Shown piece by piece: positions 1,564 to 22,594 of a DNA stretch of 50,213 nucleotides. This DNA is from an uncultured Brachyspira sp. (GTDB taxonomy: Bacteria > Spirochaetota > Brachyspiria > Brachyspirales > Brachyspiraceae). The translations under genes were made by a program, and so were the position numbers. The notes under the pieces were generated by a model that made no database searches, was not told the DNA's origin, and saw only the letters and a list, made by a program, of their open reading frames with translations. The stretch lies in contig NZ_CALXRM010000019.1 of NCBI RefSeq assembly GCF_944390845.1, forward strand, positions 1 to 50,213, given 5' to 3'. Within the stretch, counting starts at the first letter, position 1, and each line of letters starts with the position of its first letter.

Positions 1564-4227
1564 ATGGCAACAAAAAAAACTACTACAAACAAAAAAGACG
1601 AAGTAAAAGAAACTACAAAAAAGACTACAACTAAGAAAACTGCAGCTAAAAAAGATGATGCTGAAGTAAAAGAAACTGTTAAAAAAACTACAACTAAAAA
1701 AACTGCAGCTAAAAAAGATGATGCTGAAGTAAAAGAAACTGCAAAAAAAACTACAACTAAAAAAACTGCAGCTAAAAAAGATGATGCTGAAGTAAAAGAA
1801 ACTGTTAAAAAAACTACAGTTAGAAAAACTGCAGCTAAAAAAGACGATACAGAAGCAAAAGAAACTGTTAAAAAAACTACAGTTAGAAAAACTGCAGCTA
1901 AAAAAGATGATACAGCAAGTGATAATAATAACATAATCAGCAGTGCAGTTAAAGAAAAAGAAAACACAATTAAAGAAATTGAAAATAAACCTAAAGAAGA
2001 AAAGAAAGCCATAGATTTTTTACAAGATAAAAAAGATGTAAAAGAAGTTAAGGAAAATAAACCTGAAATAAAACCTTTAGAAAGTTTATCTATAACAAAA
2101 AGAGAAGAAGAAAAAAAAGAGGAGAAGAAAGATTTAAAAGAGCTTATCAAAGAAGCTACAGCAGAAAGAAAAGGTGCTGACAGAAAAATCGTATTAAAAA
2201 CTTCTACTCCTGTTAGAAAATTAGATTCTATAAAAACTGAAAATACAGAAAGTAAAACAGAAAGAGAGTCAATCACTCTATTAAAAGAGGCTATAAAAGC
2301 TAAATCAAAAAATGTGTCAAGACCTGTTACTGTAAAAAAACGTCTTGCAGTAGTAGATGATGAGACTATAGAAAGCACAGATACTACAAATGCTACAAAA
2401 GAATCAAGCGTATCAAGTCCTATAGTAGCAAGTGTATTAGCTGCTCATTCATTGAAAGATAAAGAAAATGACGAAAAAATTGAAGCAGAAAAACATGATA
2501 TACATGATTCATTAGATAAAAAAGATGATGCAGCTGAAAATATTGAAAACAAAGAAACTATTTCAGAAGTATCCGAAGAAACAACTTCTGAAGCAGAAGA
2601 ATTAAAAGAAGCAGAAAAAACAGAAACTGAAGAAGAAAAAGTTGAAGAAAAAACAGAATCTGCTGTAACTCATAGCAGTACTTATAGCTCTTCTATATTT
2701 TCATTTGAAAGATTCCGCAGAAGAGAGGAAGAAGCAAAAGAAAAAGCTGAAGAAAAGCAAGAAGAGGAAAAAGAAACTACAGAAGACAAAGAAGAAATCG
2801 AAGAAAAACAAGAAGAAATTTCAGTACAAGAAACTGAGAAGGAAGAAACAACAGAAGATGTTTCTTCTGTTGAAGAAGCTGAAGAAAAACAAGAAGAAAC
2901 AGAATCTGAAGCTAAAGAGGAAATAAAAGTAACTGAAAAAGCAACTTACAGCAAAAGCGATATTTTCAAAAGACAAGTTGTTATACCTTTAAACGACGAA
3001 GATGTTCAAAGATCTAAATATGAACAGCAGGAAATTGACAGTGCTATAGAGAAAGCTCATACTATAAATGAAAATGATTCAATAGAAAGTTATGCTGAAA
3101 ATACTCAGGAAGAAACAGAAAATGAAAAATTACAAGAATTAAAAGATAAAGATATAAAAATTATAGAAACTGAAGAAGAATTAAAAACTTCAGCTCTTCC
3201 TGAAATAGAGAAAAAACCAGCTGAACCTTATGTAGTTCCTAGCCACTCTATCGAGGAAAATAAAAAATCAAATAAAATTGTTGCTATAGTTGGTATCATC
3301 ATAATAATACTTGGATTATCTTTCTTGGGAGTACAATTCTTCTCTGGAAGAAATAACACTATAGAAGATGACGGTTTCTATGATATCGTTACTAATGAAA
3401 CAGTTAATAATAATACTAATAATTTAATAGATATACAAAACACTAATGCTGTTAGACCGCAAACTAATAATGTTAATACAAATACTGCTAAACCGCAAAC
3501 TAATGTTAGACCTAACACTAACAATGCTGTAGTTAATACTAATGCTATTAAACCGCAAACTAATAACACTAGACCTAATACTAATACAGCAAATACTAAT
3601 GCTATTAGACCACAAACTAATAACACTAGACCTAACACTAATGCGGTAAACACTAATACAGTTAGACCTAACACTAATAACGCAGCAGTAAATACTAATA
3701 CAGCTAGACCGCAAACTAATAATACTGCGACAAGACCTAGCACTAATAACACAGCAACTAGACCTCAGACAAATAATGCTCCTACTCCTCCAAAAGAGCC
3801 TGAGATAAATCCGCCAACACCACCTACTCCTCCGCCTAATCCGCCTGCAGCAAATACTAATGCATCAGCGGCTGGCAGCACAATACAAAATAATAATAGC
3901 AGTACCTTAACTTATAATACAGGTACTTATAAAACTCAATGGAAAGATACTCTTTCCTCTATAGCCGTCACGGAACTGGGGGACTCAAGGAGATGGCCGA
4001 CTATATTCGTACTCAATGAACAATTAATAAAAAATCCTGATAGTATAGTTTTTAATGTTGATATAAAATTGCCTAATGGAGGAAAAAAAAAAGTTGAGAA
4101 TATGAGTGACGCTGAAAAAAAGGCATTGTATAATGATTATATAAAGGTATCAGACATATATTCAAGAATGGGTAAACAAGACCTAGCAAATACAATCAAA
4201 TCTCAAGCAAATTCAATTATAAAATAA
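1564..4227 (+). CDS. Single-pass membrane protein: Lys/Ala-rich repeats, acidic coil, TM, Asn/Thr linker, LysM-like domain
   Basis: This is an 887-residue protein with no signal peptide. Residues 8-118 hold about five copies of a 21-residue Lys/Thr/Ala repeat (core KKTTTKKTAAKKDD), resembling histone-H1 or AlgP-type tails. Residues about 120-565 are very charged, E/K-rich and probably coiled coil. A single hydrophobic segment follows at about 572-592. Residues about 610-780 form an Asn/Thr/Pro linker built of RPQTNNTRPNTN-like repeats ending in poly-Pro. Residues about 786-842 look like a LysM domain (YKTQWKDTLSSIA through VDIKLPNG), followed by a helical tail. By charge the N-terminus should be cytoplasmic and the LysM domain periplasmic, binding peptidoglycan. 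The start ATG has only a weak A-rich ribosome site, consistent with coupling to the gene 6 nt upstream. A role linking nucleoid to wall is inference. Confidence 0.85.
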   Translation: MATKKTTTNKKDEVKETTKKTTTKKTAAKKDDAEVKETVKKTTTKKTAAKKDDAEVKETAKKTTTKKTAAKKDDAEVKETVKKTTVRKTAAKKDDTEAKETVKKTTVRKTAAKKDDTASDNNNIISSAVKEKENTIKEIENKPKEEKKAIDFLQDKKDVKEVKENKPEIKPLESLSITKREEEKKEEKKDLKELIKEATAERKGADRKIVLKTSTPVRKLDSIKTENTESKTERESITLLKEAIKAKSKNVSRPVTVKKRLAVVDDETIESTDTTNATKESSVSSPIVASVLAAHSLKDKENDEKIEAEKHDIHDSLDKKDDAAENIENKETISEVSEETTSEAEELKEAEKTETEEEKVEEKTESAVTHSSTYSSSIFSFERFRRREEEAKEKAEEKQEEEKETTEDKEEIEEKQEEISVQETEKEETTEDVSSVEEAEEKQEETESEAKEEIKVTEKATYSKSDIFKRQVVIPLNDEDVQRSKYEQQEIDSAIEKAHTINENDSIESYAENTQEETENEKLQELKDKDIKIIETEEELKTSALPEIEKKPAEPYVVPSHSIEENKKSNKIVAIVGIIIIILGLSFLGVQFFSGRNNTIEDDGFYDIVTNETVNNNTNNLIDIQNTNAVRPQTNNVNTNTAKPQTNVRPNTNNAVVNTNAIKPQTNNTRPNTNTANTNAIRPQTNNTRPNTNAVNTNTVRPNTNNAAVNTNTARPQTNNTATRPSTNNTATRPQTNNAPTPPKEPEINPPTPPTPPPNPPAANTNASAAGSTIQNNNSSTLTYNTGTYKTQWKDTLSSIAVTELGDSRRWPTIFVLNEQLIKNPDSIVFNVDIKLPNGGKKKVENMSDAEKKALYNDYIKVSDIYSRMGKQDLANTIKSQANSIIK

Positions 4228-4269
4228 TAATTATCACTCCTAAAATAAATCAGCTATAATAAAAAAATT

Positions 4270-4644
4270 ATGAAAAGATTCGCTAAAAATAAAAATGCTA
4301 TTTTAGAATTTTCCTGCACCGGTTGCGGTATATGCTGTAAAGAACCTGGTTATGTGTTTTTTACTGATGATGATATAAAAAAAGCATCTAATTTTTTAAA
4401 TATATCCCCTATAGTATTTATTAACAAATATTTAGAATACGATGAAGGGTATGGATATTATATTCAAGTTACCGGAGAAAAAGGCTGTACTTTCCTAGAT
4501 GAAAGTAATAAATGTATAATACATGAGGCTAAACCAGAACAATGCAGAACTTTTCCGTATTGGAATGAATATATGGATAAAAATGGAAACTTAATTGCTG
4601 GTAAATTTAATAGACCCTGCCATGGTGTATCTATAAAAAAATAG
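4270..4644 (+). CDS. YkgJ family cysteine-cluster protein
   Basis: A 124-residue protein of the YkgJ family (putative zinc/iron-chelating domain). The signature is visible as Cys16, Cys19, Cys22 and Cys23 in CTGCGICC, then Cys74, Cys83 and Cys93 (EQCRTFPYW) and Cys118. The full set of family cysteines is present and the length is typical. Members are thought to bind a metal ion or iron-sulphur centre; the cellular role is unknown. It starts 42 nt after the LysM protein with no strong Shine-Dalgarno, so it may be translated from the upstream transcript. Confidence 0.88.
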   Translation: MKRFAKNKNAILEFSCTGCGICCKEPGYVFFTDDDIKKASNFLNISPIVFINKYLEYDEGYGYYIQVTGEKGCTFLDESNKCIIHEAKPEQCRTFPYWNEYMDKNGNLIAGKFNRPCHGVSIKK

Positions 4645-4721
4645 TCTTTTATTGTTTATTTTTTTTTAATATATTATATAATATAGTCAGCCAATATATT
4701 TTGTTTTAGGAAAATCGGATA

Positions 4722-6176
4722 ATGAGTAATGATTTAATAAGTAAATATGATATTTTAACGGTAAAAGATCTAAAAAGTATTAAAGATCAATTAATTTCAC
4801 ATAATATACCTCTATTTAGAGTTGATAAAGAAAAAAATCTTATAGCATTTCCAACTGAACAATTAAGTCTTATTATAGACAATGAAAAATATAATAACCT
4901 AAAACTATATATTCCTAAAAATTTTGCAGTATTTATTGATGAGTTCAAATCAATAACTCAAACTGATTCATCTACATCAAGTACTCAAGCTGCTGCTCCT
5001 TATGTTTTCAGAACTCCTAAAGAATCTGAAAAAGAAATGGGTAAAAGAATTTCTGAAATTTCTAAAATGACTTACAGAGAAAAAGTAAGCACAATAGAAA
5101 CATACAATAAAGAGCTTAAACAAATTGTAGTTGATGAAGAACAAGGTATCAATAAAAATACTGCTCAGCAAATTGTTAATGTTGGTAATGATGTAGGTCT
5201 TATCGCTAAAGTAACAATGTTTGAGAGTATACAAAAAATTAAAGGCGAAGAAATTACTCAAGAACAGGCTAAAATAGAAAACCAAGAAATAACAGAAACT
5301 ACTACTAACCTAGTTACAACTATAGTTGATATGCTTTCAAAAAATACTGAAACTCAAAAAGTATTTGATGAACTTAGAAACTATTCTGACGGCGGTATAA
5401 TGTCTCACTCTAACAGGGTATTTATTTCTTATGTCAATTTTATAGCATTTTATAATAACCTCATAAACAGAAGACATTTAGTACATAAAATAAGAACTTC
5501 ATATACTAATAAATATAAAAAATTCTATGAACAAGTTGAAGCAGTATTCAGCAAAGATAATATATGCAAAAATCTAGCTACTGTTGAAGACTGTATTGAT
5601 AAAGGTATTAAAATCATAGAAGACAGAGAAATGAATCTTTATTCTGTTGGTGCTTTACTTCATGATATAGGTAAAGTTAAAGATTTGGATTATTTTGAAG
5701 GTGCTAACGGAAGAGATTATGAAAGAATAAAAAAACACTTATTTAACAGCTATGCTTTAGTAAGTCAAACTTCAGAATATCCTCTTGAAGTTATATTGAC
5801 TGTAGCTTTACACCATGAATATTATGGTTTAGGTTATGGTCCTTATGATCATTTATATAAATTAAAATTGGCAAAACACCCTAGTTTCCAAATACAAAGA
5901 ATAATGACTTATGATGCTAAGACTATAGATGAATGCGAGGCTTTTGCTTATTTCCCTGCTAAAATGCTTGAAATAATAGACGTTTACGATGCTTTAATTG
6001 ACCCAGCACGTAAATACAGAGGCGGAAAAACATTTACTCCGGAAGAAGCTCTTAACATTATGAGAGAAGATTTTATAGAAAAGCATGTTAAATTAGACCC
6101 TATTCTATACGATGTATTTGTAGAGTTCTTAAGTAATTCTATAGAACAGGATTTAATGGCTTGTAAATTAATATAA
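4722..6176 (+). CDS. HD-GYP-like phosphodiesterase domain protein
   Basis: This is a 484-residue protein. The C-terminal half is an HD domain: His314-Asp315 in LLHDIGKVKDL, a downstream His in KKHLFNSYAL, His364-His365-Glu366 (HHEYYGLGYG) and the later DVYDALIDPARKYR segment typical of HD-GYP proteins. The signature GYP is GYG here and the spacing is atypical, so c-di-GMP hydrolysis is plausible but not assured. Residues 1-300 contain no receiver, PAS or GAF domain that I recognise; they are helical and charged. The start ATG follows AGGAAAA at 4708-4714. The protein has no signal peptide and is probably cytoplasmic. The HD call is firm; the substrate is inference. Confidence 0.82.
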   Translation: MSNDLISKYDILTVKDLKSIKDQLISHNIPLFRVDKEKNLIAFPTEQLSLIIDNEKYNNLKLYIPKNFAVFIDEFKSITQTDSSTSSTQAAAPYVFRTPKESEKEMGKRISEISKMTYREKVSTIETYNKELKQIVVDEEQGINKNTAQQIVNVGNDVGLIAKVTMFESIQKIKGEEITQEQAKIENQEITETTTNLVTTIVDMLSKNTETQKVFDELRNYSDGGIMSHSNRVFISYVNFIAFYNNLINRRHLVHKIRTSYTNKYKKFYEQVEAVFSKDNICKNLATVEDCIDKGIKIIEDREMNLYSVGALLHDIGKVKDLDYFEGANGRDYERIKKHLFNSYALVSQTSEYPLEVILTVALHHEYYGLGYGPYDHLYKLKLAKHPSFQIQRIMTYDAKTIDECEAFAYFPAKMLEIIDVYDALIDPARKYRGGKTFTPEEALNIMREDFIEKHVKLDPILYDVFVEFLSNSIEQDLMACKLI

Positions 6177-6201
6177 TCTTATTTTTTGTGCTTTTTTATG
6201 T

Positions 6202-6222
6202 TACTATAAACTTTATATAGTA
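6202..6222 (+). other. AT-rich hairpin after the HD-domain gene
   Basis: TACTATA and TATAGTA form a perfect 7-bp stem around a 7-nt loop, 25 nt after the stop codon. A T-run comes only 13 nt further on (around 6233), so this is at best a weak terminator. Confidence 0.35.
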
Positions 6223-6270
6223 TACCAATATATTTTTTAAGAAAAAACTAATTTAAAAATAATTTATCTG

Positions 6271-6343
6271 AGCCAGCCATGGGGATCGAACCCACGACCC
6301 ACGCATTACGAATGCGTTGCTCTGCCAACTGAGCTAGGCTGGC
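6271..6343 (-). tRNA. tRNA-Thr (anticodon CGT)
   Basis: On the minus strand a full cloverleaf is visible: acceptor GCCAGCC/GGCTGGC, D-arm GCTC/GAGC, anticodon stem ACGCA/TGCGT with loop TTCGTAA (anticodon CGT, reading ACG), a 5-nt variable loop, and T-arm GTGGG-TTCGATC-CCCAT. It is 73 nt long, with the discriminator base read as T and no encoded CCA. Its 5' end lies 8 nt after the stop codon of the minus-strand protein gene at 6352-6972, so it is probably processed from that transcript. Confidence 0.97.
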
Positions 6344-6351
6344 TTTTTATT

Positions 6352-6972
6352 TTAATTCATATCATTCGTAGCGTAGTCACCGCTGTTTAATTCCTCTAGC
6401 TTCTGAACGCCATCTCTAAAGGCTGTAAATATACTCTGCCAATTGCTTGTAGTGAGAGAAGATATTGATATATCATCATAAGCTTCTTCTCCAAACTCAT
6501 TTATAAAATTAAATCTTATATTTGTTATTGCAGCATTAGCAAAACCATCAAACTCTGCATCATCATTGAATTTATATCTAACTTCTACATCATAATATTT
6601 GAATCTTCCCATTAAATAAGGACTATAAATTACTTTTTGTATATTAGTAAGCTCAATACTGCTTCCGTCATTAAATGAAAATGTTATAGGCATGCCATTT
6701 GTTATTGATATTGCACTTGGATACTTATATCTAAACTGCAATGTCATAGTTCTTCCGTTTCTTTTATAGAATCTAAAACTATTATCCCTTAAATATTTAT
6801 AAGTGTATTTCCAAGATGTATATAGATTCATTTTTGAAGTTAATTTATCTCTTTCTGAAAAAAATAATCTGCTTTTGAATATATCATTCGTACCAGCTTC
6901 TTCCTGTGAATACAAGATATTTGAAGCCAAAAATACTGATAAAAATGAAATTAATAATGCATATCTATTCAT
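6352..6972 (-). CDS. Secreted/periplasmic protein of unknown function
   Basis: This is a 206-residue protein with a clear N-terminal signal peptide (MNRYALLISFLSVFLASNIL, cleavage likely after LYS-Q around residue 22). The start ATG follows AAGGA with good spacing. The mature part is rich in aromatic residues and predicted strand (DGSSIELTNIQKVIYSP, YYDVEVRYKF), like a small beta-rich periplasmic or outer-membrane-associated protein. I recognise no family. There is no lipobox cysteine. The tRNA-Thr gene follows 8 nt downstream on the same strand. Confidence 0.78.
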   Translation of the reverse strand: MNRYALLISFLSVFLASNILYSQEEAGTNDIFKSRLFFSERDKLTSKMNLYTSWKYTYKYLRDNSFRFYKRNGRTMTLQFRYKYPSAISITNGMPITFSFNDGSSIELTNIQKVIYSPYLMGRFKYYDVEVRYKFNDDAEFDGFANAAITNIRFNFINEFGEEAYDDISISSLTTSNWQSIFTAFRDGVQKLEELNSGDYATNDMN

Positions 6973-7133
6973 TTTATAATTCCTTATATGAAATATACTA
7001 TCATTAAAATACGGAATATTAAAGCTTAAAATTGAATTTTTTCTTACAAATAAATTGACTATATATACTATTTTTGTTAGAATAATAAAACTTTTTTACC
7101 GATAAAATTCAAAAAATTAAAGGAAATTTATTA

Positions 7134-7502
7134 ATGGAAGCTATAATTATAATATCTATCATAATATTAATATCAATCATCTTTGTAATAAGCTATATAA
7201 AGAAAATACAATCTGGAAGCTGCTGCGGTACTAGAGGAAATGAAAACATATCAAAAGTAAAAGTAGCTGATAAAAATAAAAATCATTATCCATACAAAAA
7301 AATATTACAAATAGGCGGAATGACTTGCAGTAATTGTGCCAAAAAGATAGAAAATAATTTTAATAAACTTGGAAATGTATATGCTAAAGTTAATTTTGAT
7401 AAGGAAGAATTAATTATACTTATGAAAGAAGAATTAAGCGATCAAGATATTGAAAATGTTATAAAAGATTCTGGATATAGATATTATATAAAAAACGCCT
7501 GA
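7134..7502 (+). CDS. Membrane-anchored heavy-metal-associated (HMA) domain protein
   Basis: A 122-residue protein. Residues 3-21 are a hydrophobic anchor, followed by a Cys-Cys pair at 30-31 (SGSCCGTRG). Residues about 56-121 form an HMA domain with the metal-binding motif GGMTCSNC (Cys65, Cys68) and the expected beta-alpha-beta-beta-alpha-beta pattern. Family knowledge: these domains bind Cu(I) or similar soft metals and hand them to P-type ATPases. No ATPase is nearby. The ATG follows AAAGGA. The terminator stem overlaps the last codons. Confidence 0.88.
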   Translation: MEAIIIISIIILISIIFVISYIKKIQSGSCCGTRGNENISKVKVADKNKNHYPYKKILQIGGMTCSNCAKKIENNFNKLGNVYAKVNFDKEELIILMKEELSDQDIENVIKDSGYRYYIKNA

Positions 7503-17078: not shown

Positions 17079-17501
17079 TTATTCTCCTTTAATTTCTATT
17101 TTCTTTTCATATTTAAGTTCTTCTTTCTTTGGAAGAGTTACTATCAAAACACCATTAACTAAATTAGCTTCTATATTTTCAACATCAATACCTTTTGTGC
17201 TGATATTAAAGCTTTGTTCATATCTGGCAATAACTTCCTCTTTTGCTTCTCCATTTTCTGCTTTAACTGCTTTTTTACGTTTAGCAGAAATAGAAAGTAT
17301 ATTTTCTTTTATGCCTATTTCTAAATCTTCTTTTTTTACTCCAGGCATATCCATTTCTATAATATAATGTTTCTCATCTTCTTCTATTCTATATTCAGAT
17401 ACTCTAGGTTCATAATCTCTAAAATGATTGTAATTTCCTACATTGTTATATCTATTTGAAAAAAGTGAATTTAAAGTTGGTACAAATATTCTTCTTGACA
17501 T
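17079..17501 (-). CDS. Small heat-shock protein (Hsp20), second gene
   Basis: A 140-residue alpha-crystallin domain chaperone that holds unfolding proteins for refolding. The domain (about 40-130) has the MDMPGVKKEDLEIGIKEN strand pair, the Arg-containing RYEQSFNIS segment and the A-x-x-x-n-GVL motif (EANLVNGVLIVTLPKK). The C-terminal IXI motif is I-E-I in KKIEIKGE. AAGGAG precedes the ATG. It is a close paralogue of the gene at 17604, 102 nt upstream on the same strand, and probably shares its transcript. A short basic/acidic linker (AVKAENGEAKEEV) replaces the longer one in the paralogue. Confidence 0.93.
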   Translation of the reverse strand: MSRRIFVPTLNSLFSNRYNNVGNYNHFRDYEPRVSEYRIEEDEKHYIIEMDMPGVKKEDLEIGIKENILSISAKRKKAVKAENGEAKEEVIARYEQSFNISTKGIDVENIEANLVNGVLIVTLPKKEELKYEKKIEIKGE

Positions 17502-17603: not shown

Positions 17604-18059
17604 TTAACCTATATTAATTTTTTTCTCATATTTAACTTCTTCTTTCTTTGGAAGAGTTATTTTGAGAACACCATTACTCAAATTAGCTTCTATATTTTCA
17701 ACATCAATACCTTTTGTACTGATATTAAAACTTTGCTCATATCTTGAAACTACAACCTCATTATCTTTTTCAGCATTTTCTGCATTTTGAGCATCAACAA
17801 CTTTATTTTTGTTTACTCTTTTGCGTTCAGCATATATAGAAAGAACATTTTCTTTTATGCCTATTTCTAAATCTTCTTTTTTTACTCCAGGCATATCCAT
17901 TTCTATAACATATTGTTTATCATCTTCTTCTATATTGTAATGAGATAATTTTCTCATTTCTTCATTATTGCTGTTATATAAGCTATTAAAAGCATCATCA
18001 AAAGTTCTAAAATCATCTAACATAGAATGTAAAGCAGGTAAAAATAATCTTTTAGTCAT
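17604..18059 (-). CDS. Small heat-shock protein (Hsp20), first gene
   Basis: A 151-residue alpha-crystallin domain protein, paralogue of the downstream gene; long stretches such as GVKKEDLEIGIKEN and SFNISTKGIDVENIEANL are identical. The C-terminal IXI motif is I-N-I. The N-terminal arm (MTKRLFLPALHSMLDDFRTF) starts like the paralogue's (RIFVPTLNSLF). AAGGAG precedes the ATG. The promoter is probably the sigma-54 site at 18173-18189, which would give a leader of about 100 nt. I see no CIRCE (TTAGCACTC) element upstream, so HrcA control is not supported. Confidence 0.94.
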   Translation of the reverse strand: MTKRLFLPALHSMLDDFRTFDDAFNSLYNSNNEEMRKLSHYNIEEDDKQYVIEMDMPGVKKEDLEIGIKENVLSIYAERKRVNKNKVVDAQNAENAEKDNEVVVSRYEQSFNISTKGIDVENIEANLSNGVLKITLPKKEEVKYEKKINIG

Positions 18060-18172
18060 AATTAAAACTCCTTTATATTAACTTTCATTATTTATCATTT
18101 TTATATAGCATTTCATCTATTTAATTTATCTTAACTCTTTTTTCTGAGTTATCATCGCTACACTAATATATA

Positions 18173-18189
18173 TGCAAGAACTGTGCCAA
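18173..18189 (-). promoter_or_regulatory. Sigma-54 (RpoN) promoter of the sHSP operon
   Basis: On the minus strand the sequence reads TTGGCACAGTTCTTGCA, a full match to the -24/-12 consensus TTGGCAC-R-N4-TTGCW, including the invariant GG and GC at proper spacing. The start would fall near 18161, about 100 nt before the first sHSP ATG. An AACTC/GAGTT dyad (about 18134-18150) lies just downstream, in the leader. Confidence 0.7.
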
Positions 18190-18293
18190 TTATTTTTTAA
18201 ATATTGTTTATTAATAATACACTTGAACTATTTTTTTATATACAAAGCCATTATCACTAAATTAATCCGTACAATTTTAATACAATAAATTTA

Positions 18294-18357
18294 ATACATT
18301 GTATATCTATTATACTACTTAATAGACAATAAAAATCCAATGTATATAGTTTATACA
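18294..18357. promoter_or_regulatory. Candidate enhancer dyads between sHSP and birA
   Basis: Two inverted repeats, ATACA-T-TGTAT at 18294-18304 and TGTATA-TAGTT-TATACA at 18341-18357, lie about 110-165 bp upstream of the sigma-54 site, where enhancer-binding activators usually bind. They could instead serve the divergent birA promoter, which lies about 45 bp from the second dyad. Confidence 0.4.
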
Positions 18358-18373: not shown

Positions 18374-18406
18374 TTGTAAACCGCATACAATATTTAAAGT
18401 TGACAA
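18374..18406. promoter_or_regulatory. BirA operator (biotin box)
   Basis: TTGTAAACC (18374-18382), exactly 15 bp, then AGTTGACAA (18398-18406). The BirA consensus is TTGTAAACC-N15-GGTTTACAA: the left half is perfect and the right half matches 7 of 9. The right half covers the whole -35 hexamer of the birA promoter, so BirA-biotinyl-AMP binding should block RNA polymerase. Confidence 0.85.
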
Positions 18407-18428
18407 TTAATTTTCTTTATGTTATCAT
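18400..18428 (+). promoter_or_regulatory. Sigma-70 promoter of birA-bioBDA
   Basis: TTGACA (18400-18405), a 17-bp spacer, and TATCAT (18423-18428). The start would be expected at about 18434-18436, which is on or beside the birA ATG at 18435; the mRNA may be leaderless. Confidence 0.65.
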
Positions 18429-18434
18429 AATTTT

Positions 18435-19421
18435 ATGAAAGGAAGTATAAAAGAGAATATAATATCAATATTAGAATCAAATAAAGGTCTATTTATATCC
18501 GGTGAAAAATTAGCAAATCAATTAAATGTAAGCAGAGCAGCAATTTGGAAGGCAATAAAAGCATTAAAAAATGAAGGATATGATATTTATGCTGTATCCA
18601 ATAAAGGCTATGCTCTTTCTAAAGAAACAGATATTTTATCATCAAAAATAATAAAAAATAATATGCATAAACATGCTGATAAATTTAATCTTTTAATATA
18701 CAAAACTGTAGAATCAACAAATATTATAGCAAGAGGTTTAGCAATAAATGGAGCCGAAAGCGGAACTGTAATTTTGGCTGAAGAACAGACAAGCGGATAC
18801 GGAAGAAACGGAAAATCATTCTTTTCACCTTATGGAACCGGTATATATATGAGTATAATTTTAAATCTTAAAAAAGAAAAAAAGACTTTTAATAACTCTT
18901 TCATAACAACAGCAGCAGCAATGGCAGTATCAAAAGCAATAGAAGAAATAACAAATACAAATACAAAAATAAAATGGGTTAATGATATATTTATAAATGA
19001 AAAGAAGGTATGCGGAATATTAACTGAAGGTGCTTTCAGCTTTGAGGACGGAAAAATTGATTATGCCATTATAGGAATAGGAATCAATGTTAATTTTCCT
19101 AAATCAGGATTCCCAAAAGAAATAGAACATATAGCATCATCTATACATTTAGAAAATAATAATAAATCTGATATAAGAAATTTATTAATATCAAAAATAT
19201 TAGAAAATCTATGGGAATATTATTTTAACAATATCAATTTCTATGATGAATACAAAAAGCGTTCTTTTTTGATAGGAGAAAAAGTTTCTATAAATATAGA
19301 AGGAGAAGAAAATATAGTAAAAGTTTTAGATATAGATAGAAATTTTGCTTTGATAGTAGAATTTAATGATGGAAAAATTGACAGACTATTGTCTGGAAGC
19401 GTAAATCATAAATTATCATAA
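18435..19421 (+). CDS. birA: Bifunctional biotin-protein ligase / biotin operon repressor
   Basis: A 328-residue group II BirA. Residues 1-65 are a winged helix (GEKLANQLNVSRAAIWKAIK, then a wing ending GYALS), so this is a regulator as well as a ligase. The ligase core holds the biotinyl-AMP loop GYGRNGKSFFSP near residues 122-133 and the KWVNDIF and GIGINVNF segments; a small C-terminal SH3-like domain follows. It joins biotin to carboxylase carrier lysines and represses the bio genes when the co-repressor accumulates. It is the first gene of birA-bioB-bioD-bioA, with a biotin box on its promoter. No Shine-Dalgarno precedes the ATG, in line with a leaderless mRNA. Confidence 0.96.
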   Translation: MKGSIKENIISILESNKGLFISGEKLANQLNVSRAAIWKAIKALKNEGYDIYAVSNKGYALSKETDILSSKIIKNNMHKHADKFNLLIYKTVESTNIIARGLAINGAESGTVILAEEQTSGYGRNGKSFFSPYGTGIYMSIILNLKKEKKTFNNSFITTAAAMAVSKAIEEITNTNTKIKWVNDIFINEKKVCGILTEGAFSFEDGKIDYAIIGIGINVNFPKSGFPKEIEHIASSIHLENNNKSDIRNLLISKILENLWEYYFNNINFYDEYKKRSFLIGEKVSINIEGEENIVKVLDIDRNFALIVEFNDGKIDRLLSGSVNHKLS

Positions 19422-19436
19422 ATATGGGGGGTAAAT

Positions 19437-20438
19437 ATGAGCAATATAGAAAAGATTATAAGAGAAGAAGTAAATTTAAATGAATTAAGAGAAAAAATTA
19501 TTAACGGATATAATATAACAAAAAAAGAAGCAATGAAATTAATTAATGTAGACTTAGATGAATTATCTGTTGCAGCAAATAGTATAAGAAAATATTTTTG
19601 TGCTAATACATTTGATATGTGTTCTATAATAAATGCTAAAAGCGGAAAATGCTCAGAAAACTGTAAATTTTGTGCTCAGTCAGCTCATTATGATACACAA
19701 TGTGAAAAGTACAATATACTCCCAAAAGAAAAAATATTAGAGCAGGGAAAAAATGATTTTGATAAAGGAGTTTTAAGATATTCTATAGTAACATCAGGCA
19801 GAGCATTACAAGGAGAAGATATTGATAAAGTTTATGATGCTATAGAAACTATTAACCAAGAAACAAACGGATATGTATGTGCATCTTTAGGATTGCTTGA
19901 TGAAGAAAAATTTTCAAAATTAAAAGAAGCAGGACTTAAAAGAGTTCATAACAATTTAGAAGCATCAAGAAATTTCTTTCCGGAAGTTTGTACAACTCAT
20001 ACTTATGATGAAAAAATAAATGCAATAAAAGCAGCACAAAAAGCAGGATTAACAGTATGCAGCGGCGGTATAATGGGAATGGGAGAAACTTGGGAAGACA
20101 GAATAGACATGGCATTTGAATTAAAAGAACTTGGTATAATGTCTATACCAGTAAACATGTTAAATCCAATAGCCAATACTCCTTTTGAAAATATTACACC
20201 TCTTACTGAAGATGATATGCAAAGAATAGTTGCTATATATAGATTTATTAATCCTAAAGCATTCATAAGACTTGCTGGAGGAAGGGGACTTTTAAAAGAT
20301 AAAGGAAAAGCATGTTTCTTATCCGGAGCAAATGCAGCCATTACCGGCGATATGCTCACAACTATGGGTATTTCTATAGAAACAGATAAGCAAATGGCTG
20401 AAGAATTAGGATACAAAGTACAATTAACAGAAGATTAA
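19437..20438 (+). CDS. bioB: Biotin synthase
   Basis: A 333-residue radical-SAM enzyme that inserts sulphur into dethiobiotin. The 4Fe-4S cysteines are Cys72, Cys76 and Cys79 in GKCSENCKFCAQS. Typical segments for the second cluster and substrate site are VHNNLEASRNFF, GGIMGMGET and the late RLAGGRG. GGGGGG 4 nt before the ATG gives a strong ribosome site. It sits 15 nt after birA and 28 nt before bioD. Length and motifs are complete. Confidence 0.97.
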   Translation: MSNIEKIIREEVNLNELREKIINGYNITKKEAMKLINVDLDELSVAANSIRKYFCANTFDMCSIINAKSGKCSENCKFCAQSAHYDTQCEKYNILPKEKILEQGKNDFDKGVLRYSIVTSGRALQGEDIDKVYDAIETINQETNGYVCASLGLLDEEKFSKLKEAGLKRVHNNLEASRNFFPEVCTTHTYDEKINAIKAAQKAGLTVCSGGIMGMGETWEDRIDMAFELKELGIMSIPVNMLNPIANTPFENITPLTEDDMQRIVAIYRFINPKAFIRLAGGRGLLKDKGKACFLSGANAAITGDMLTTMGISIETDKQMAEELGYKVQLTED

Positions 20439-20466
20439 AAAATTATTTTTTATAGGATATTATATT

Positions 20467-21129
20467 ATGGCTAAAGCACTTTTTATAACTGGCACTGGAA
20501 CTGATGTAGGTAAAACTTATGTATCAGCATTGATTGCAAAACAATTAAAAGATGAGGGATTGAATATAGGATATTATAAAGGAGCTTTAAGCGGCAGCAA
20601 TGAAATAACTGACAGTGATGCTTGGTATGTTAAAGAAAAAGCTAATTTAACAGACTCTTATGATGAAATGGTATCTTATACTTACAAACATGCCTATTCT
20701 CCTCACTTGGCTTCTCAAATAGAAGGGAATCCTGTTGAAATGCAAGTAATAAAAGAGGCATATAAAAATATTTCTAAAAGGCATGATTATATGATAGTTG
20801 AAGGAAGCGGCGGTATAATATGCCCTATAAGATACGATAAAGATAAAAAAATATTTTTAGAAGATATCATAAAAGAACTTGATATACCTTCTATAATAAT
20901 AGCCGATGCCGGACTTGGTACAATAAATTCTACAGTACTTACAATAGAATATATGATGAAAAGAAAATTAAAAATCAATGGAGTTATATTAAATAAATTT
21001 GAAATATCAAATGTTATGCATGAAGATAATAAGCAAATGATAGAAGAAATGACTGATATAAAAGTAGTTGGAATAGTTAATACAGAAAATATATTAAAAA
21101 TAGATAATTTAATTTCGCTTTTTGAATAA
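20467..21129 (+). CDS. bioD: Dethiobiotin synthetase
   Basis: A 220-residue P-loop ATPase-fold enzyme that closes the ureido ring of 7,8-diaminopelargonate with CO2 and ATP. The Walker A-like TGTGTDVGKTY lies at residues 8-18. The EGSGGIICP segment carries the expected acidic residue and glycine loop, and the lysine YYKGALSG occupies the usual substrate site. It is cytoplasmic and the third gene of the bio operon. A 124-nt structured gap separates it from bioA. Confidence 0.95.
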   Translation: MAKALFITGTGTDVGKTYVSALIAKQLKDEGLNIGYYKGALSGSNEITDSDAWYVKEKANLTDSYDEMVSYTYKHAYSPHLASQIEGNPVEMQVIKEAYKNISKRHDYMIVEGSGGIICPIRYDKDKKIFLEDIIKELDIPSIIIADAGLGTINSTVLTIEYMMKRKLKINGVILNKFEISNVMHEDNKQMIEEMTDIKVVGIVNTENILKIDNLISLFE

Positions 21130-21165
21130 TTGTTATTCTTAATAATTATTTTAATAGATTCTAAA

Positions 21166-21228
21166 TTCTTTTTGCTTTCTCTCCCTATTTGCAAAAAGAA
21201 TATGCGGGGGACCTATTTTACTCCCCCG
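21166..21228 (+). promoter_or_regulatory. Double hairpin between bioD and bioA
   Basis: Stem 1: TTCTTTTTGC (21166-21175) with GCAAAAAGAA (21191-21200), a perfect 10 bp. Stem 2: CGGGGGA (21205-21211) with TCCCCCG (21222-21228), a perfect 7 bp, very GC-rich for this genome. The loop of stem 1 contains CTCTCCC, which could pair with the GGGGGA arm of stem 2 instead. No T-run follows, so this is not a terminator. It may control RNA processing or bioA translation. Confidence 0.5.
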
Positions 21229-21253
21229 TGTATATTTAAAAAAGGAACTTATT

Positions 21254-22594
21254 ATGACATTAGAACAAAAAGATTTAAAATATATATGGCACCCTTGTTC
21301 TCAAATGAAAGATTATGAGGAACTTCCTCCGATCATCATAGACAGAGGAAAAGGAATTTATTTATACGATAAAAACGGAAAAGAATATATTGACATTGTA
21401 AGTTCTTGGTGGTGCAATTTACTTGGACATTGCAATGAAAAAATAAATGAAAATATTAAAGCACAGCTTGACAGACTTGAGCATGTTATATTTGCAAATT
21501 TTTCTCATGAAGGTGCTATTAAATTATGCGAAGAACTTATAAAAATAATACCTGAAGGATTAACTAAATTCAATTTTTCTGATAATGGTTCTTCATCAGT
21601 AGAAGCTGCATTAAAAATGGCATTTCAATATCAGCATCAAATAGGAAATACAAAAAGAACAAGATTTATCTGTTTTACGGACGGTTATCATGGTGAAACT
21701 ATTGGTGCATTATCCGTTGGAAGCTTAGACCTATATGCTAAAATATACAAACCAATGTTAATGGACACAATACATATAGAAGCTCCTGATTGTTATAGAT
21801 GTAAATACTGTAAAAACAGAGAAACTTGCCAATGCGAATGTTTTGAAGATGCTGAAAAAAAGTTTGAAAAATATTCTGATGAAATTTGTGCTGTTATAGT
21901 AGAGCCTTTACTTCAAGCAAGTGCCGGAATGAGAATATATCCTCCTCTATACTTAAAAAAATTAAGAGAGCTTTGTAATAAATATGATGTAGTTTTTATA
22001 GTTGATGAAATAGCTACAAATTTCGGACGCACAGGAAAAATGTTTGCATGCGATCATGCCAATATTACTCCCGATATAATGTGTATTTCAAAAGGCTTAA
22101 CAGGTGGGTACATGCCTATGGCAATAACTATAACTACAGATAAAATATATAATGCCTTTTATGCTGACTATAATGAAGGCAAGGCTTTTATGCATAGTCA
22201 CACTTATAGCGGAAATCCTCTCGGCTGTTCTGCTGCTTTGGCTGTACAAAAGATTTTAAGAGAAGATGATATCATAAATAAAACACAAGTCAGAGCAAAA
22301 TATTTAAATAATAAATTAAAAGAAAAATTACTTGATCACCCAAACATAGGAGAGATTAGAAATATAGGTCTTATCAATGCTATGGAATTAGTTACTGATA
22401 AAAATACAAAAGAAGGTTTTGATTCTAAACTTAGAATGGGTTATCAAATATACAAAAAAGCACTTCAAAGAGGACTTTTATTAAGACCTTTAGGAAATGT
22501 AATTTATTTCAATCCGCCTTTGATAATCAATGAAGAAGAAATAGATAAGGCTGTTGATTTATGTGTATCTTCTATAAATGATATACTATACTAA
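21254..22594 (+). CDS. bioA: Adenosylmethionine-8-amino-7-oxononanoate aminotransferase
   Basis: A 446-residue class III PLP aminotransferase making 7,8-diaminopelargonate. The PLP lysine is Lys280 in CISKGLTGGY. The IVDEIATNFGRTG segment binds the cofactor and SSWWCNLLGH lies near the substrate site. A Cys-rich stretch at about 180-198 (CYRCKYC to CQCEC) occurs in a subset of BioA proteins and may bind a metal. The ATG follows AAAGGAAC. bioF and genes for pimeloyl supply are not in the window. The stop codon abuts a REP2 repeat, which ends the operon without an ordinary terminator. Confidence 0.95.
   Translation: MTLEQKDLKYIWHPCSQMKDYEELPPIIIDRGKGIYLYDKNGKEYIDIVSSWWCNLLGHCNEKINENIKAQLDRLEHVIFANFSHEGAIKLCEELIKIIPEGLTKFNFSDNGSSSVEAALKMAFQYQHQIGNTKRTRFICFTDGYHGETIGALSVGSLDLYAKIYKPMLMDTIHIEAPDCYRCKYCKNRETCQCECFEDAEKKFEKYSDEICAVIVEPLLQASAGMRIYPPLYLKKLRELCNKYDVVFIVDEIATNFGRTGKMFACDHANITPDIMCISKGLTGGYMPMAITITTDKIYNAFYADYNEGKAFMHSHTYSGNPLGCSAALAVQKILREDDIINKTQVRAKYLNNKLKEKLLDHPNIGEIRNIGLINAMELVTDKNTKEGFDSKLRMGYQIYKKALQRGLLLRPLGNVIYFNPPLIINEEEIDKAVDLCVSSINDILY

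Follow-up and report, generated by a model that had tools for sequence, protein, structure and literature searches.

Heat-shock control in bacteria is usually described in terms of sigma-32, HrcA/CIRCE, CtsR or HspR, with HrcA being a common heat-shock repressor. Regulation by an NtrC-like protein is found in Myxococcus xanthus, where the regulator-kinase system HsfA/HsfB controls the heat-shock gene lonD; to our knowledge, this is its one known target, and a conserved multi-operon sigma-54 regulon is not known for this system. Among spirochaetes, Borrelia burgdorferi has the Hk2-Rrp2-RpoN pathway, in which a soluble kinase and an NtrC-like regulator act together with RpoN, the output being rpoS and host-adaptation genes. 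Members of the genus Brachyspira are spirochaetes of the gut, and some are pathogens of pigs, poultry and people. For chaperone genes, a sigma-54 promoter has been described before the small heat-shock gene ibpB of E. coli, beside its sigma-32 control (PMC4316790, PMC4370416), and in Chlamydia trachomatis tandem sigma-66/sigma-54 promoters precede hrcA-grpE-dnaK, the organism possessing the NtrC-like AtoC with its kinase AtoS (PMC8762339). In Bacteroidota and Planctomycetota, sigma-54 promoters are predicted before genes for GrpE, DnaK, IbpA-type small heat-shock proteins (sHSPs) and ATP-dependent proteases, a cluster not named for Spirochaetia in the corresponding survey, which does not mention Brachyspira (PMC12316311). 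A literature search, with subscription journals mostly outside its coverage, retrieved no paper on sigma-54 in Brachyspira. The initial annotation of the locus studied here had considered RpoN control of sHSPs unusual, which is appropriate as long as it is not taken to mean unprecedented, given the E. coli ibpB and C. trachomatis hrcA-grpE-dnaK cases.

The DNA analyzed, a stretch of 50,213 bases referred to as the window, bears a predicted sigma-54 promoter with the -24/-12 element TTGGCACAGTTCTTGCA at 18173..18189 on the minus strand, an assignment made from pattern match, conservation and a profile of 74 sites. The element shows GG at -24 and GC at -12 in fixed spacing within a TTGGCAC-N5-TTGCA context. 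No other place in the window matches TGGCACN5TTGCW or TTGGCACN5TTGCA without a mismatch, and only about 0.0015 copies of the latter are expected from base composition; the consensus-perfect element proposed in the initial annotation is thus confirmed. Transcription is predicted to start at about 18162 when taking C18174 as position -12 (previously placed at 18161), and 113 nt separate the element from the first Hsp20 start codon. As had been claimed as well, the element is directed at a pair of sHSP genes, both downstream ORFs belonging to PF00011 and encoding Hsp20 proteins of 151 aa (17604..18059, minus strand) and 140 aa (17079..17501, minus strand). The second gene is presumed to be part of the same operon, co-transcription of the pair being suggested by the 102-nt gap without a further sigma-54 site. 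In agreement with the reported absence of CIRCE, no such element occurs in the 50,213 bases when allowing up to three mismatches. Divergently from the sHSP genes, a biotin cluster assigned by sequence as birA-bioB-bioD-bioA lies in the region 18400-22594 of the window and has a strong sigma-70-like promoter, TTGACA-17-TATCAT, at 18400-18428.

Upstream of the sigma-54 sites, 17-bp dyads of the type TGTATN7ATACA are arranged in tandem, often at a spacing of 32-34 bp corresponding to about three helical turns. NtrC sites have the same length of 17 bp. In the sHSP upstream region, enhancer-like dyads lie on the minus strand at 18205..18221 (proximal copy, 9/10 match), 18268..18284 (weaker, 8/10, with better copies at this position in relatives), 18300..18316 (9/10) and 18341..18357 (10/10, the sole perfect copy in the window). 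Dyads matching at least 9/10 positions were found in 71 of 75 upstream regions versus about 9% of shuffled sequences, and perfect ones in 27 of 75 versus 0.2%, ratios which overstate the significance because the dyad was defined on the very sequences scored and these come from related genomes. The dyads likely represent the enhancers of an activator protein.

Named relatives of the sHSP place the genome under study (3.43 Mb, 133 contigs) in the genus Brachyspira. Across this genome, the pattern TTGGYAYN5TTGCA has five exact matches versus 1.4 expected. Four of them are located just upstream, and on the right strand, of the sHSP pair, clpB, grpE-(69-aa ORF)-dnaK and lon, the latter identified by TIGR00763 at 986 bits, and hence one conserved control element is common to several chaperone and protease operons. 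A chance origin of the match might be argued from the relaxed pattern being expected about 1.4 times per genome and from one-mismatch sites being nearly all within genes, but the probability of four out of five exact sites preceding chaperone or protease genes in the right orientation is about 1e-15, assuming ten such upstream regions, and conservation of the sites across the genus refutes this explanation, which we consider practically nil. Of 115 places with one mismatch, 59 were classified and 58 of these fall inside ORFs, so that they were rejected as extra regulon members; exact and one-mismatch sites differ significantly in intergenic location (Fisher p = 8e-7), and an upstream dyad accompanies just two of the 35 one-mismatch sites checked for one. 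Likewise, groEL was rejected as a member, with no such site being found at this gene in 22 genomes, and the regulon therefore excludes some chaperones. Almost all Brachyspira grpE loci that were read have the 69-aa ORF (L173:5024-5233) between grpE and dnaK; it gives no match in Pfam or NCBIfam and, from its position, belongs to the grpE-dnaK operon as an uncharacterised gene.

The fifth exact site is intergenic on contig C17 (L081:1350-1900; around 47,245 of C17 in G000) and resides inside a conserved noncoding repeat, which is also found at L070, L074, L087, L093 and L095. The repeat occurs in several Brachyspira genomes, in some of them in more than one copy, and contains an exact TTGGCACN5TTGCA between arms that have diverged yet are still complementary, for example, GTAGGTAGG and CCTACCTAC. 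Neither an ORF of at least 60 aa close downstream nor an enhancer dyad nor an Rfam match was detected. Instead of a promoter, the repeat may represent a mobile element or an RNA element, and the C17 site was left out of the regulon as lying in a noncoding repeat without dyad and Rfam match.

Within Brachyspira, the sHSP site is present in all 13 readable upstream regions and in 12 of 12 readable named loci, and the grpE site in 25 of 25 readable genomes (24 matching at 12/12 positions and one at 11/12). The clpB site is found in 20 of 23 readable genomes, being missing in G006, G010 and G031, and the lon site in 18 of 25, being missing in G001, G007, G010, G014, G018, G031 and G034. Some assemblies are fragmented: grpE was not found in G011, the clpB upstream region is unreadable in G005 and G037, and G013 gives no clpB match. 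In a Brachyspira relative (G004:C1, around 1,324,187-1,325,548), weak below-cut-off GrpE matches fall into a 7,872-aa open frame that probably encodes a giant coiled-coil protein. In the profile of 74 distinct sites, GG, GC and their 10-bp spacing are invariant, which is partly built in because the core positions were used for site selection; positions not selected for, namely two spacer T's and the T after TTGCA, are fixed as well. This profile also bears on whether the element could be a sigma-70 promoter or a repressor operator merely resembling a sigma-54 site. TTGGCA is indeed similar to a -35 hexamer, and several sites have a TATAAT-like sequence after TTGCA, but the distance from TTGG to this hexamer varies, with 13 bp at clpB and grpE and 15 bp at the sHSP genes, while GG, GC and the 10-bp spacing never do. 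Moreover, a sigma-70 scan did not call the site and gave no more hits in the region than in shuffles. With variable hexamer distance and negative scan, such an identity of the element is disfavoured and appears very improbable. An additional sigma-70-type promoter before these genes is possible.

The initial annotation could not decide from the window whether the organism has rpoN. The genome encodes one RpoN with activator-interacting, core-binding and DNA-binding domains (TIGR02395 above cut-off) as well as one true enhancer-binding protein (PF00158, E 5e-74). The remaining five PF00158 matches only reach 20-34 bits, a level at which all 14 control genomes show matches, compared to 4 of 14 at E<1e-30. 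The activator gene (L170:3755-5095, minus strand) encodes an NtrC-like response regulator with REC-AAA+-Fis HTH architecture and GSFTGA motif; at its start, the gene overlaps with the end of the one for a soluble PAS histidine kinase (L170:5088-6281, minus strand). All 19 Brachyspira genomes tested possess rpoN and exactly one such activator and lack HrcA; the same hrcA search, negative in these 19, was positive in two of 12 other spirochaetes. The regions upstream of the kinase-regulator operon and of rpoN contain neither a sigma-54 site nor a clear dyad, and therefore autoregulation is not claimed.

The sigma-54 promoter reading is thus supported by the presence of rpoN and the activator, the 13/13 conservation of the sHSP site, the enhancer-like dyads and the recurrence at clpB, grpE-dnaK and lon; the putative regulon and enhancers, the single activator and the lack of HrcA were beyond the reach of the initial annotation. 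Based on these sequence data, the site very likely is a working sigma-54 promoter and one of four in a single-activator proteostasis (heat-shock) regulon consisting of the sHSP, clpB, grpE-dnaK and lon operons, all apparently under the same activator. Promoters, dyads, one RpoN, one activator, the lack of HrcA and the conservation are directly seen in the sequences. In the proposed mechanism, RpoN holoenzyme would occupy the -24/-12 element and be held in a closed complex, and the NtrC-like REC-AAA+-Fis-HTH activator would bind at the upstream tandem TGTATN7ATACA dyads. The soluble PAS kinase might switch the activator on in response to heat or unfolded protein, with phosphorylation leading to oligomerisation, and ATP hydrolysis by the activator would then remodel the polymerase and open the promoter, so that sHSPs, ClpB, GrpE-DnaK and Lon are raised together. 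The sigma-54/activator system would thereby fill the role held elsewhere by HrcA/CIRCE. Conceivably, the promoters are real and under this activator, while the signal is not heat but growth phase, redox, envelope or metabolic state. The PAS domain of the kinase matches only weakly and no domain known to sense heat accompanies it, and the nearest NCBIfam models are AtoS/AtoC, far below cut-off; however, the four conserved operons all consist of classical protein-quality-control genes, and none of the exact sites in this genome belongs to a metabolic operon, making a different signal rather unlikely.

Parts of the putative proteostasis regulon extend beyond the genus. The order-mates G019 and G020 encode an orthologous kinase-regulator pair, the regulator sharing 68% identity and having a recognition helix that is near-identical, and show sigma-54-like sites ending with TTGCT before grpE and clpB. 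Dyads matching 9/10 positions lie 119 and 128 nt upstream of their grpE sites. The distant HrcA-less spirochaete G029 likewise has sigma-54 sites preceding both genes, grpE and clpB. In two HrcA-positive spirochaetes, no such site was found at grpE, nor at clpB in the one that was read. As HrcA-less relatives have similar sites, the sequences suggest that the arrangement predates Brachyspira. In G029, a grpE-dnaK-dnaJ run (L331, reverse strand 1935-7165) is headed by a sigma-54-like site, and an activator gene follows 8 nt past dnaJ; this activator is only 43% identical to that of Brachyspira.

Brachyspira seems to have handed much of its heat-shock control to sigma-54 and one activator, resulting in a compact and testable regulon of four operons, one regulator and one enhancer motif. 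The further-reaching proposal is that heat-shock control in Brachyspira relies mainly on sigma-54 and one dedicated NtrC-like activator and is positive, enhancer-driven and ATP-gated, replacing HrcA and sigma-32 genus-wide, with rpoN kept chiefly for this purpose. For this we regard the prospects as evenly balanced.

Compared to the described systems, the likeness to E. coli ibpB lies in a sigma-54 promoter heading toward a small heat-shock gene. There, however, it is an extra promoter within a sigma-32 operon, whereas the Brachyspira site heads the operon, recurs at three more proteostasis operons and is associated with a dedicated activator. C. trachomatis resembles Brachyspira in having an NtrC-like activator plus kinase and in the sigma-54 promoter that precedes grpE-dnaK. 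In contrast to Chlamydia, which has kept HrcA and the tandem sigma-66 promoter and whose sigma-54 targets are mostly non-chaperone genes, HrcA is absent from Brachyspira and the exact sites mark chaperone and protease operons. The cluster predicted for Bacteroidota and Planctomycetota belongs to another phylum and includes groEL/groES, while in Brachyspira groEL stays outside and an activator with enhancers is proposed. Hk2-Rrp2-RpoN of Borrelia, likened here by description, consists of similar parts, but its output is not a chaperone regulon. HsfA/HsfB of Myxococcus resembles the Brachyspira system in placing an NtrC-like regulator and a kinase at a heat-shock gene, compared to four predicted target operons in Brachyspira. 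Hence, sigma-54 promoters at single chaperone operons are already known, and what is new in Brachyspira is the predicted multi-operon regulon with one activator and without HrcA.
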